Assembly (NCBI RefSeq): GCF_014202345.1
Contig: NZ_JACHGO010000005.1
Coordinates: 186,001-250,000 of the forward strand
Origin: Desulfovibrio intestinalis
GTDB taxonomy: Bacteria; Desulfobacterota; Desulfovibrionia; Desulfovibrionales; Desulfovibrionaceae
Direction: 5' to 3'
Length of the DNA stretch: 64,000 nucleotides
A program made the position numbers and the translations under genes. The notes below the pieces were generated by a model. It searched no databases and had not been told where the DNA came from. It saw only the letters and a program-made list of their open reading frames with translations. Positions 8,549 through 33,449 of this stretch are shown piece after piece. How positions within the stretch are numbered: the stretch's first letter is position 1; each line of letters begins with the position of its first letter.

Positions 8549-9742
8549 TTAATGATCGCATTTAGACAGGAGCAGGGTGATATCCATATCTTCAGCTTCA
8601 TTGCCTGACAGAGATCGCTCAATCTCAAGCCCTGGTTGCTTGCTCAAATCCAGGGCGCAGGGCTTCACGGGTCTTCCTGCCGGGTCAAAGGCAACCATAA
8701 TGCAAGGCTGAGCGGGGAAGCTGGGGTTTGAGCGGCAAACAATACCACGTTCGCCGCTGGAAAGCTGCACGGGGGTACCGACAGGATAAATTCCCATCAT
8801 CTTTATGAACCGCTCAACATAGCCGGGCGCCCAGGCTTGACCGCGCATTTTGTACATAACAGCCAGTGCCACATTTGCGGGCATTGGCGTTTTGTACACT
8901 CTTTTAGCTGAAAGAGCGTCATAATTGTCGCTCACTGAAAGAATACGGCCATAAATTCCAATTTTCTTTCCGGCCAAACGGTATGGATAGCCTGTGCCAT
9001 TGTGCTTTTCATGATGTTGCACAACGCCCTGCAAAACCTCCGGATGCATGTTTTCCACTTTTTTGAGCTGATTGTAGCCAAGCAGCACATGGGATTGCAT
9101 GATTTCCTGTTCTTGGGGCGTCAGTTGCCGAGGGGCATTAAGAATTTCTTGCGGAACGAACGCCTTACCAAAATCATGAAACAAACCAGCCATGCCCACA
9201 AGATGCAACTTGTCCTCTGACAGGCCAAGGTAGTGGGCATATGCCACGGCAAAAATGGTCACATTAACCGAATGTGTGTAGGTATATTCGTCTGAACTTT
9301 TGAGTTTGGATAAAGATATGAGGGCGTCAACATTTCGATTGAGGCTGTTGACAATGGATTCAACGTAGGGCTGGGATGCTGCAACGTCTACCGCGCCACC
9401 TTGAGCTGCCTGCATCAAGCTTTTTACATGCTCAAAGGAATCGGCGTAGACTGCCCTGGCTTGCAGTATTTCTTCATCTAAAGAGACCTGAGGGCCGCGC
9501 GGTGCTGGCCAAATGGGAGAGTTTGCATCCGGGTCTTCAGCAAACTCCTCCATACGGCGAAAGCGGGCAGGGTCATGATAGGCCTCTGCGTAGCCCTGCT
9601 TGACAATATAGTCAATTTCTTCGGACGAAGTTATCAGCCCCTCTTGCATATACAGGAGAGGCGCCTTTATCCAAGAAATCCCAGGATTAACTATAAACAT
9701 TCCTGGTTTTATTTCGGTAACGGTTATTTTTACTAGCGCCAT
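8549..9742 (-). CDS. HD-GYP domain protein, likely cyclic-di-GMP phosphodiesterase
   Basis: A 397-residue soluble protein. The N-terminal ~130 residues resemble the DUF3391 domain that often precedes HD-GYP. The HD-GYP core follows with the metal-binding HD in LFHDFGK, the HHEKHNGTGYP motif, and VSDNYDALSAKR. All expected metal ligands look present (the D of DGxGYP is N), so hydrolysis of cyclic di-GMP is plausible. This contrasts with the degenerate HD-GYP protein at 31266. I chose the ATG at 9742 (MALVKITVTEIKPGMF, the usual DUF3391 start); an in-frame ATG at 9775 would add 11 residues overlapping a hairpin. It lies downstream of lysC on the same strand. Confidence 0.88.
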   Translation of the reverse strand: MALVKITVTEIKPGMFIVNPGISWIKAPLLYMQEGLITSSEEIDYIVKQGYAEAYHDPARFRRMEEFAEDPDANSPIWPAPRGPQVSLDEEILQARAVYADSFEHVKSLMQAAQGGAVDVAASQPYVESIVNSLNRNVDALISLSKLKSSDEYTYTHSVNVTIFAVAYAHYLGLSEDKLHLVGMAGLFHDFGKAFVPQEILNAPRQLTPQEQEIMQSHVLLGYNQLKKVENMHPEVLQGVVQHHEKHNGTGYPYRLAGKKIGIYGRILSVSDNYDALSAKRVYKTPMPANVALAVMYKMRGQAWAPGYVERFIKMMGIYPVGTPVQLSSGERGIVCRSNPSFPAQPCIMVAFDPAGRPVKPCALDLSKQPGLEIERSLSGNEAEDMDITLLLSKCDH

Positions 9743-9768
9743 AGACAAAAAAACCGCCTCTGATCGTC

Positions 9769-9796
9769 TGGCCACGACATGGATTTGCCGTGGCCA
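9769..9796 (-). terminator. Hairpin between lysC and the HD-GYP gene
   Basis: TGGCCACG (9769-9776) pairs perfectly with CGTGGCCA (9789-9796). Read on the minus strand it follows the lysC stop by about 28 nt, and a T7 run comes some 15 nt after the stem. It may be a partial terminator or a leader hairpin of the HD-GYP gene. Confidence 0.4.
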
Positions 9797-30147: not shown

Positions 30148-31257
30148 ATGAAAACTAACCGACTGCTGCGTTTTTCACTGATAACAGCACTGCCTTTGGC
30201 TGTGGTGTTCTTGCTGGTGGCTTTAACGGCACGGTATTTTCTTCCTCTTCCGGCAACGGCAGCACAAAACACTGCCTCAGGAATTGTTGCTGGCGGGCTT
30301 GTTGGCGACGATTATGCGCCCGAGCGTCCTATTTCGACCACTTTGGACAAGGTTGATCAAATTCAGCCTTCTTCGCTCGAGGGTTTTACCCGGCAGCCTC
30401 CAGCCCCAGCATCAAACAAGCAACAAACGCCTCGCCCAGGAAAAAAGAATGCCCCTAGCAATCAGGAGGGCGTCGGGCAGCCGAATGAAAGCCGTGATGC
30501 GCTGCAAGACAGTGAGAACACAGCCCGTCAGGATGACGGCAAAGCGTCGCCTCAGGACCAGGGAAATGCCGCTCCTGAAGATGAAGGCGATGACGTTGTT
30601 CCCGCTTCTCATGATAAAGTTGACGTTCCAACAGCCGATTCAGCTTCCGCCACAAGTTCAAGTGATTTCTCAAAGGAGCAGGTCGGCACTTCTGGCAATA
30701 AGGTTCAGCTTTTTGGAACCGTAGAATTTAAAAGACCTCTTTCATCGCTGCCCGGTTGGCTTACTCTGCTGAAACGTAATGCAAAAGATCCTATTTTTAT
30801 TCCCGGAAAATATTTTAAAAAAAGTGTCACCTGGGACAATTTCAAAGAAAAAGCCAAGGGTAAAAGCCCTATGGATCTACTCCGTTACGTTAACTCTTTC
30901 TGGAATACCTGGCCCTATAAAGAGGATATCGTAAACTGGGGAGTAGAGGACTACTGGGCAATACCAGCAGAGTTCCTGAAAAAATCTGGTGACTGCGAAG
31001 ATTATGCTATAGTTAAGTATTTTACCCTTAAAGAATTGGGCATTCCAGCCGAAAATATGCGTATCGTGGTCGTGCGCGATACCGTGCGCAACCTGGCGCA
31101 TGCCGTTCTGGCGGTATACTTGAATGGCGACGCCTATATACTTGATAACCTCAGTAATGCCGTCTTGTCACACAGCCGGATCAGGCAGTACAGCCCACAG
31201 TATTCGGTCAATGAAGTAGGCCGTTGGGCGCACCTTAAAGGTCGCAAGGTAAAGTAG
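30148..31257 (+). CDS. LapG-like periplasmic transglutaminase-fold cysteine protease
   Basis: A 369-residue protein with a signal peptide or N-terminal anchor (hydrophobic residues about 10-30, ATAA near 39). A long disordered linker of about 100 residues follows (about 80-180), rich in D, E, Q, S and P. The C-terminal bacterial transglutaminase-like cysteine proteinase domain is about residues 215-365. The catalytic triad is visible: Cys283 in SGDCEDYA, His318 in NLAHAVLA, Asp333 in ILDNLS. LapG proteases cut large surface adhesins to release biofilm when cyclic di-GMP is low. The start has no strong ribosome-binding site. The next gene, 8 nt away, encodes the likely controlling receptor. 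The adhesin and its type I exporter are not in this window. Confidence 0.88.
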   Translation: MKTNRLLRFSLITALPLAVVFLLVALTARYFLPLPATAAQNTASGIVAGGLVGDDYAPERPISTTLDKVDQIQPSSLEGFTRQPPAPASNKQQTPRPGKKNAPSNQEGVGQPNESRDALQDSENTARQDDGKASPQDQGNAAPEDEGDDVVPASHDKVDVPTADSASATSSSDFSKEQVGTSGNKVQLFGTVEFKRPLSSLPGWLTLLKRNAKDPIFIPGKYFKKSVTWDNFKEKAKGKSPMDLLRYVNSFWNTWPYKEDIVNWGVEDYWAIPAEFLKKSGDCEDYAIVKYFTLKELGIPAENMRIVVVRDTVRNLAHAVLAVYLNGDAYILDNLSNAVLSHSRIRQYSPQYSVNEVGRWAHLKGRKVK

Positions 31258-31265
31258 GTAATACT

Positions 31266-33380
31266 ATGAAGATGCAAGAAATGGATGCCCAAAGTGTAGC
31301 CAGTAAATACCGCCTTAAGAAAGCTGCCGTGGCGGCTGTCAGTCTGGCGCTTTTTGCCGTAGCGGCTGCAGTGGCCTACGTGCTATGCACACTCCAGATA
31401 AAAAACGTGACGCAGGAAGTTTTGAACAGCCAGCGTGACATGGAGCAGGTCTGGATGGAAAAATCGCTGGATGCCATTCATACATGGCGCAGCGGTCTTA
31501 CCGAGCAGGCCCGCTTTATCAGCTCCGCTGAAATGTTTCGGCTTTACGCTGTAGACGTGCTTAACCTTGGAGCTGACGGCGCAGTACGGCTTGCATCTCC
31601 AGACGCGGAATCAAGCAGCGATGAAGCCCTGCGCTCTCTGGCAGAGCAGCGGCCCTATATGCAGGACCTTTTGCAGGATTTTGTACGCAGCAGACAATGG
31701 GTTGCGGCTCGCATCGTCACACCTGACGGCCAGCCACTTGTCATGCAGGACCAGAGTGCTCCTCTTGGCGAACCGCAGATGACGTTGGTACATGAGGCCA
31801 TGACCGGAAAAACCTTAACTTTCGGTCCTGTTCGCGTTCTTGGGCAAAATCTTGTTATAGACTTGGTTGACCCGCTTTACGAGGTGCTGGGACAAGGCAA
31901 TACCAAACCTGTGGCCGCGCTACTGGCCACAGTTCCGATAGACAGAGCCCTGGCCTCCTTCTTGGCGCTGAGCCAGGAACAGCACAGAGAAATTCAACCT
32001 TGCATCGTTCAGCGTAATGACAACAACATGCAAGCCATCAGTCTGCGTGGCGGCAGGGCAGAGTTGGCCCCTTCTTTAGTACAAATGAGCGAGGGAAGCC
32101 TCATTTTCAAGCGCAGACCGGGCATTGCTGAAAAAGGTGAAACCTACTCGCTGGGAAGCTATATCAGTGTACTTAAATGGTGGATTGTGCTGGAAGTGCC
32201 TGCCAGCGTAGTTGACTCTGTACTGGAAAGACAGGCTAATCAGATTTATGGACTGGGCATTCTTGGCAGCCTGGGCACCGCCTTGCTGGTTGCCTTGGTA
32301 TGGGCCAGCATTGCTGGACGCGCTTACCGCACGACAGCCATGCATTTTCAACGCCTTTATGCCCTCATACGACAACAAAAACTGATGTTGGACAGCGTAA
32401 ACGCTTCTCTTCAGGCTGGCCTGCTGCTTGTTGACAGTCAGGGGCAGGTGCAGATGTGCAACCCGGCTTTTAACAGTATTGCCGGAAAAGCAGACGTAGA
32501 TCTGATCGACAAAAACCTTACTGCCATATTGCCCGCTGCGGCTGCAACAGCCTTGCAGAAAGGCATGGCTATGGTTACGGACAGCAAAACTGAAGGCAGC
32601 ATTGAGGTATTGCTCGACCAGCCCCAAGGGGAGCGTCTGTACCGGGTAACGCTCTTTCCCTTTGAGGACAAATTGCAGATGGAATCGCCTGTTTCAGGCG
32701 GGTGTGTTGGTATTTTTCAGGATATCACGGAATTCCGACGCAGGGCAGAGGCCGCTCGTGAACGTCAGGCCAGCAGCACCGCCGCCTTGGTGCGTGCCAT
32801 CGAAAGTGTGGATAGAAACCTCATTGGTCATTCGCAAAAAATGGCGCAAGTGGTGGATCTTCTGCTCACGACCATGAATATTTCCGATAAAGACAAAGAC
32901 ACGCTGCGCCTGGCGGCTCGGCTTTCTCAGGTGGGTAAAATCTTTGTTCCCCGTCACTTGCTGACCAAGACTGAAAAGCTCACGCCAGAAGAGCAGAGCG
33001 AAGTCATGCGCGCACCGGAATACGCCTACAGGGTTCTGCATGACCTGCAGTTCGACCTGCCAGTGCCCGATGCTGTTTATCAGATGGGAGAACGGCTGGA
33101 CGGAACAGGTCAGCCGCGTAACCTCAGCGGCGAAGACATTATACCTAATGCGCGTGTTTTGGCAGTGGTTAACGCTTTTTGCGCCATGGTCAGCTCTCGC
33201 TCTTACCGGGCCGGAATGACGCCGCAGGAAGCCATTGCGCTGCTTGAACGTGATCAGGGTTTCGATCAGGATGTTGTGGCAAAGCTGGCGTCCCTGTCTG
33301 CTGACAGCCTGAAAGAGGCAATTGACGCCAGGGCTGAGAATTCTTCGAATTCTGCCATCGGTGAAAACACACTGCAATGA
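31266..33380 (+). CDS. Membrane sensor with PAS and degenerate HD-GYP domain (LapD-like role)
   Basis: A 704-residue inner-membrane protein. Order: transmembrane helix at about 20-45, periplasmic dCache-like region to about 325, second helix at about 330-350, PAS domain about 375-490, HD-GYP-derived domain about 510-680. In the latter the metal ligands are gone: the HD pair is replaced in RLSQVGKIFVP, HHE is replaced in YQMGERLDGTGQP, and the YDAL region reads NAFCAM. Hydrolysis is therefore unlikely, but ligand binding may remain. Its place 8 nt after the LapG-like protease gene suggests it sequesters that protease in response to cyclic di-GMP, as LapD does with a different (GGDEF-EAL) domain. 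A related protease/HD-GYP pair has been described in Desulfovibrio vulgaris to my knowledge (Dvh system). Confidence 0.85.
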   Translation: MKMQEMDAQSVASKYRLKKAAVAAVSLALFAVAAAVAYVLCTLQIKNVTQEVLNSQRDMEQVWMEKSLDAIHTWRSGLTEQARFISSAEMFRLYAVDVLNLGADGAVRLASPDAESSSDEALRSLAEQRPYMQDLLQDFVRSRQWVAARIVTPDGQPLVMQDQSAPLGEPQMTLVHEAMTGKTLTFGPVRVLGQNLVIDLVDPLYEVLGQGNTKPVAALLATVPIDRALASFLALSQEQHREIQPCIVQRNDNNMQAISLRGGRAELAPSLVQMSEGSLIFKRRPGIAEKGETYSLGSYISVLKWWIVLEVPASVVDSVLERQANQIYGLGILGSLGTALLVALVWASIAGRAYRTTAMHFQRLYALIRQQKLMLDSVNASLQAGLLLVDSQGQVQMCNPAFNSIAGKADVDLIDKNLTAILPAAAATALQKGMAMVTDSKTEGSIEVLLDQPQGERLYRVTLFPFEDKLQMESPVSGGCVGIFQDITEFRRRAEAARERQASSTAALVRAIESVDRNLIGHSQKMAQVVDLLLTTMNISDKDKDTLRLAARLSQVGKIFVPRHLLTKTEKLTPEEQSEVMRAPEYAYRVLHDLQFDLPVPDAVYQMGERLDGTGQPRNLSGEDIIPNARVLAVVNAFCAMVSSRSYRAGMTPQEAIALLERDQGFDQDVVAKLASLSADSLKEAIDARAENSSNSAIGENTLQ

Positions 33381-33412: not shown

Positions 33413-33449
33413 ACGCCGGAGTCCTCTTTGAGGGCTCCGGCGTACTTTT
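33413..33449 (+). terminator. Rho-independent terminator of the lapG-like operon
   Basis: ACGCCGGAG (33413-33421) pairs with CTCCGGCGT (33435-33443), followed by ACTTTTA. Confidence 0.85.

Follow-up and report, generated by a model that had tools for sequence, protein, structure and literature searches.

A LapG-type protease and a degenerate HD-GYP receptor in Desulfovibrio intestinalis as a probable adhesin-release switch of the DvhG-DvhD type

In the window (the whole 64,000-nt stretch of Desulfovibrio intestinalis DNA that was analysed), a gene for a LapG-type protease is followed after 8 nt by a gene for a membrane receptor with a degenerate HD-GYP domain. Could this pair release adhesins under the control of c-di-GMP, and would a receptor with such an altered domain still perceive the nucleotide? 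A preliminary description of the locus had mentioned a similar pair in D. vulgaris, and an experimental precedent does exist: structures and biochemistry of DvhG-DvhD (BfsG-BfsD, DVU1019-DVU1020) of Desulfovibrio vulgaris Hildenborough were published in April 2026 (Nat Commun, PMC13090378). DvhG cleaves adhesins in a calcium-dependent manner and is controlled by DvhD, which carries SQ instead of HD, binds c-di-GMP (Kd ~0.1 µM) and does not hydrolyze it; D. piger, D. desulfuricans and D. fairfieldensis were named as further hosts (PMC13090378). While the kind of system is already published, the split two-receptor layout, the altered ligand site and the set of seven adhesins come from the present locus and genome.

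The protease and its receptor

The pair consists of the following features:

30148..31257, + strand: DvhG/LapG-type periplasmic cysteine protease, 369 aa (Pfam Peptidase_C93, E=1.4e-19)
30148..30267, + strand: N-terminal hydrophobic anchor or signal peptide of the protease (hydropathy, peak at residues 9-27)
30268..30696, + strand: low-complexity linker of the protease, ~143 residues (41-183), 86% disorder-promoting
30991..30999, + strand: Asp282-Cys283-Glu284, the catalytic Cys between calcium-site acids, equivalent to DvhG D316-C317-E318 (PMC13090378)
31099..31101, + strand: catalytic His318, assigned from the sequence
31144..31146, + strand: catalytic Asp333, likewise assigned
31266..33380, + strand: DvhD1, a DvhD-type receptor, TM-dCache-TM-PAS-degenerate HD-GYP, 704 aa (domains, structure match)
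31386..32258, + strand: periplasmic dCache of DvhD1, residues 41-331, between TM 22-40 and TM 332-350 (phmmer to 9rc2_A, 4.6e-19)
32406..32741, + strand: PAS domain of DvhD1, residues 381-492 (PAS_4, 8.4e-10)
32787..33275, + strand: degenerate HD-GYP domain of DvhD1, residues 508-670 (HD_5, 3.3e-40)
33413..33443, + strand: predicted intrinsic terminator 3' of the pair (14-pair stem with 10 G-C pairs, T-rich tail)

Both open reading frames were found at these coordinates. The protease matched the LapG crystal structures 4fgo and 4u65 (1.9e-25 and 5.1e-23), and its BTLCP core contains both the C-H-D triad and the D-C-E calcium motif; the Peptidase_C93 match and the intact triad bear out the earlier identification of a LapG-type protease that keeps Cys283, His318 and Asp333. 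With the LapG equivalog model NF045674 it reached 108.5 bits, below the curated cut-off of 320, and by this model it is LapG-like, not a LapG equivalog. No second Peptidase_C93 gene was found in the genome, which leaves the window protease as the only one detected. By analogy with D. vulgaris DvhG, it would cleave its sites in a calcium-dependent manner.

The dN/dS of the catalytic core was 0.02-0.07, while the linker is the fastest-evolving part of the gene, with lengths between 126 and 195 residues across the genus. An N-terminal hydrophobic segment and a long disordered linker are shared with DvhG, which has a membrane anchor and a disordered linker of ~180 residues (PMC13090378). The linker had been described as ~100 residues long and unusual; we measured ~143, and DvhG provides a precedent for it. 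Many relatives have no such linker.

DvhD1 has the TM-dCache-TM-PAS-HD-GYP architecture of DvhD receptors, and the PAS and HD_5 matches together with the TM helices confirmed the proposed membrane sensor with PAS and HD-GYP-derived domains 8 nt after the protease. Pfam found no LapD_MoxY, GGDEF or EAL domain in DvhD1. The LapG-LapD system of Pseudomonas is alike in protease family, cleavage motif class, exporter type and regulatory logic, but the window receptor is built as dCache-PAS-HD-GYP, without HAMP-GGDEF-EAL or LapD_MoxY. The AlphaFold2 model of DvhD1 had a mean pLDDT of 83 and a pTM of 0.49, and because of this pTM the domain arrangement is uncertain. Its top structural matches were 9rc0, 9rbz and 9rc2, all three of them DvhD crystal structures; the dCache aligned with 9rc2 (Z 26.4, rmsd 2.2, 247 residues) and the HD-GYP domain with c-di-GMP-bound 9rbz (Z 25.9, rmsd 3.3, 203 residues). 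This ranking agrees with the earlier view that the pair is LapG/LapD-like and its receptor of HD-GYP ancestry. Such a receptor, which had been put forward as a convergent solution, is indeed present, but the convergence is no new finding, as it was published already (PMC13090378).

The degenerate HD-GYP domain and its nucleotide site

The motifs of the domain and their replacements are:

32925..32939, + strand: SQVGK (residue 554), replacing HDxGK; the same SQVGK occurs in D. vulgaris DvhD
33078..33092, + strand: YQMGE (residue 605), replacing xHHxE, read from the sequence
33111..33113, + strand: Gln616 at the GYP tyrosine, aligned with DvhD Y621
33171..33209, + strand: NAFCAM-VSS-RSYR (NAFCAM at 636), with Met641, Arg645, Tyr647 and Arg648 equivalent to DvhD M646, R650, Y652 and R653

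The HD, HHE and DxYDAL elements of DvhD1 read SQ, QMxE and NAFCAM, and the metal ligands are absent. These losses had been noticed before, and SQVGK, YQMGE and NAFCAM were found again at residues 554, 605 and 636; the GYP tyrosine, a point missing from the preliminary description, is gone as well (DGTGQP), a loss special to the DvhD1 clade. DvhD1 thus lacks the signature of an active HD-GYP phosphodiesterase (HD, HHE and DxYDAL ligands, GYP). It has the fold of the phosphodiesterases PmGH (4mcw) and PA4781 (4r8z) in common (Z 20-21), but differs from both, and from an HD-GYP protein encoded at 8549-9775 (- strand) of the window, in having neither metal ligands nor the GYP tyrosine. The latter protein (DUF3391 + HD) has HD, HHE and GYP intact and, judged by these motifs, is likely an active phosphodiesterase that serves as a within-window contrast to DvhD1.

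Wherever the position was readable in DvhD-type homologues, the HD pair was absent, and its absence is therefore a family trait rather than a chance or strain-specific loss. A functionless, decaying HD-GYP phosphodiesterase would explain the missing catalytic residues, but DvhD1 is under strong purifying selection (dN/dS ~0.10 overall), its linkage to DvhG is conserved, and the same HD degeneracy occurs in the experimentally working D. vulgaris DvhD. Decay is thus extremely improbable, and the reading as a decaying pseudoenzyme was rejected because of the dN/dS. The HD-GYP domain, at 0.06-0.09, is even the slowest-evolving domain of the gene.

Ligand contacts were mapped on 9rbz, and the DvhD1 set comprised 17 sequences from this genus and close relatives. 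In DvhD, M646, R650, Y652 and R653 contact c-di-GMP, R653 was mutated, and Y621 touches the phosphodiester (PMC13090378). In DvhD numbering, the window DvhD1 keeps the contacts P567, L577, M646, R650, Y652 and R653, while K520, Y523, R569, K582, Y621 and E668 are changed, with the substitutions Y523N, K582Q, Y621Q and E668D and, at a bridging position, K520V. As these reported contacts differ, the affinity of DvhD1 for c-di-GMP may be changed or lost. Position 523 is Asn in 15/17 DvhD1 sequences (N518) and never Tyr, and position 582 is Gln in 14/17 (Q577). At position 621, Tyr was found in none of the 17, compared to 24/24 receptors of single-DvhD operons and 8/8 of DvhD2, the second receptor type of this genus. 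While position 621 is among the most variable columns in DvhD1, positions 523 and 582 have each settled on a new residue; P562, R645 and R648 are invariant, L572 is nearly so, and M641 and Y647 are each found in 15/17. The fixation of positions 523 and 582, together with the constraint on the HD-GYP domain, suggests that the nucleotide site was rebuilt and did not decay.

DvhD1 might instead have lost nucleotide binding and control DvhG via its PAS or dCache domain, or only as the heterodimer partner of a c-di-GMP-sensing DvhD2. This would fit the disappearance of both the GYP tyrosine and Tyr523 from 17/17 sequences, the high variability at 621, the rumen receptors described below, which still pair with DvhG, and a DvhD2 in the same genome that keeps Y523, Y621, R650 and Y652. 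Nevertheless, the invariant and nearly invariant contacts and the conserved N518 and Q577 look like a site reshaped, not abandoned, the domain evolves most slowly of all in the gene, and in one genome (G011) DvhD1 is the sole receptor detected. A loss of binding is therefore unlikely, although it deserves some weight, and by analogy with DvhD we infer that DvhD1 itself would bind c-di-GMP despite its altered site.

Related receptors vary in the same region. In rumen Desulfovibrio relatives (L040:10410-12260, L043:8290-10131, L044:6751-8346 and L038:1658-2902), the receptor adjacent to DvhG has lost PAS and the HHE/GYP region (QMGGKVVDDPETGAN); Tyr652 is lost, and P567, L577, R650 and R653 are kept. 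In the alphaproteobacterial Sneathiella (L052:7519-19171 and other loci), a single locus holds two LapG-DvhD pairs. The receptor of one pair has SQ and GYP, whereas that of the second has MN for HD and lacks the GYP tyrosine; at the level of sequence this is the same GYP-tyrosine asymmetry as between DvhD1 and DvhD2.

The second receptor, the adhesins and their exporter

In most relatives, ABC, MFP, DvhG and DvhD are encoded in one operon, often with TolC near. In this genus, the exporter operon carries its own receptor, DvhD2, which is 31% identical to the window DvhD1, and DvhG is found elsewhere with DvhD1. The two receptor genes are divergent neighbours in D. piger (L047), and DvhD1 stands next to DvhG in those relatives of its clade whose locus was read around both genes. 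Compared to D. vulgaris, protease plus receptor and exporter thus occupy separate loci, there are two receptors, and the protease-linked one is without Y523, K582 and Y621. The main text of the D. vulgaris study makes no mention of paralogues or of a split two-receptor layout, although its supplement may list a second receptor (PMC13090378).

A receptor tree was calculated by iqtree with SH-aLRT support; its rooting is uncertain, and the two receptors may have arisen by duplication or by transfer. The DvhD1 clade was supported at 99.7 (99.9 with wider relatives), and DvhD2 and D. vulgaris DvhD (DVU1020) formed a separate group at 99.7. With support of 99.7-99.9, the tree does not make the window receptor, over its paralogue, the orthologue of DVU1020; because DVU1020 groups with DvhD2, it is DvhD2 rather than DvhD1 that is closest by descent to the D. 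vulgaris receptor. This placement, and the presence of that receptor type in the canonical ABC-MFP-DvhG-DvhD operons, would be expected if DvhD2 were the true regulator of DvhG and DvhD1 had another purpose, standing beside DvhG by history. However, DvhD1 lies 8 nt from DvhG in a linkage kept in the loci of its clade, and G011 has DvhG, adhesin and exporter with DvhD1 as the only receptor found and no DvhD2 match; as no other receptor was detected there, DvhD1 presumably suffices by itself. We consider regulation by DvhD2 doubtful, and DvhD1 would be the receptor that holds DvhG.

Just past the exporter-DvhD2-glycosyltransferase operon, on the opposite strand, an SBP_bac_3-GGDEF-EAL protein is encoded (L089:14154-17036), a candidate for a local source or sink of c-di-GMP.

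A LapB-type exporter was found on contig C1 (TIGR03375, 887 bits; cut-off 693), with TolC and HlyD above cut-off. No adhesin of the genome scored above the cut-off of the NCBIfam model retention_LapA (NF033682), from which the retention domain of the DvhA type differs too much. When the retention domain of a relative's adhesin was used as query, eight large ORFs were retrieved from the genome. In seven of them (1,039 to ~3,880 aa), an invariant PAAGP follows the retention domain at a constant position (consensus FFxAFGPDLAPAAGP). Putative substrate adhesins with a retention domain and a [TAP]AAG site are thus present. The adhesin search that had been proposed earlier, in which a genome free of such sites would have counted against the idea, yielded both adhesins and a LapB-type exporter, but the seven site-bearing adhesins are scattered and not adjacent to the exporter, which we presume carries them; one protease appears to serve all seven, compared to two adhesins in D. 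vulgaris.

The seven adhesins (L148-L154) contrast with one or two matches in each of four congeners; the set is expanded in this species. The eighth ORF (4,684 aa, L155:2879-18313, contig C6 of the same genome) has a diverged retention domain with no PAAG there and adjoins its own HlyD and ABC genes; to judge by its sequence, the cell may thus have an adhesin that resists release. In L124, the 1217-aa ORF that lies upstream of DvhG is no adhesin according to its sequence.

Among 119 genomes of the family, retention-domain adhesins were found in 45 of the 52 that have DvhG, whereas the 67 others gave no match (Fisher p ~1e-25, a value that is only indicative and overstates the independent evidence, because the genomes are related). 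Counted by genus, adhesins occur in 18/19 with DvhG and in 0/25 others. Absences in single members of genera where the system is otherwise present point the same way: protease, receptor and adhesins are all missing together from a congener (G087), and joint absence was also seen in members of g27, g36, g40 and g42. The loci of genus g8 (L122:348-14866, L123, L188) encode a DvhD-like receptor that retains the GYP tyrosine, together with a giant adhesin, ABC, MFP and a MotB/OmpA-like protein; no Peptidase_C93 protease was found in the g8 genomes.

One periplasmic residue of the receptor is nearly invariant:

31485..31487, + strand: Trp74 of DvhD1, shortly before helix alpha1' (residues 89-99)

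Trp74 is present in 100% of DvhD1, DvhD2 and both alphaproteobacterial groups and in 88% of single-DvhD operons, D. vulgaris included, while all three g8 receptors have Gln or Arg at this position and a different alpha1' motif. An AF3 model puts helix alpha1' at the interface with DvhG, which is modelled and unproven, and the study reports no obvious LapD-like tryptophan in DvhD (PMC13090378). Trp74 may be a contact between receptor and protease, for which the three related g8 sequences are weak evidence; a purely structural role is possible too.

The proposed switch

The pair is probably an adhesin-release switch of the DvhG-DvhD type, in which adhesins would be cut loose when c-di-GMP falls. 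We base this reading on the domain, structure and residue matches to DvhD and DvhG together with the published biochemistry, on the seven PAAGP adhesins, the LapB-type exporter and the co-occurrence of DvhG and adhesins, and on a DvhD1 that adjoins DvhG, is the sole receptor detected in G011 and has an HD-GYP dN/dS of 0.06-0.09. Homology, fold, motifs, layout, cleavage sites, co-occurrence and selection were all computed here. The likeness to D. vulgaris comprises the protease family, the receptor architecture, SQVGK, NAFCAM, the [TAP]AAG sites after the retention domain and the T1SS exporter.

In the proposed mechanism, the C1 exporter would thread the large adhesins through a TolC-like pore, and their N-terminal retention domain would keep them in the outer membrane. 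DvhD1 would sense c-di-GMP by a dimer of its degenerate HD-GYP domain, with no hydrolysis. At high c-di-GMP, a signal could pass via stalk and membrane helices to the dCache, which would restrain DvhG; when c-di-GMP falls, DvhG, either anchored in the inner membrane or secreted across it, would cut PAAG just past the retention domain and free the adhesin, and the cells would detach. The genes of the system are split in this genome, with DvhD1 at the protease, DvhD2 at the exporter and the seven adhesins scattered.

More tentatively, adhesin release in Desulfovibrio proper could be under both DvhD2, with Y523 and Y621 intact, and DvhD1, with a rebuilt site in which the GYP tyrosine and Tyr523 are lost and N518 and Q577 fixed. 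The one protease that serves seven adhesins might then respond at another threshold, to another dinucleotide or through a mixed receptor dimer, with Trp74 holding the protease; this fuller scheme is conceivable, and we would not favour it as a whole. Trp74 offers a single-residue candidate for the DvhD-protease contact, and the two paralogues in one cell are a natural experiment in the retuning of a c-di-GMP receptor, as they allow one pocket to be studied side by side in two versions. In Desulfovibrio, among them D. piger and other commensals of the gut, the switch should decide between attachment and leaving.
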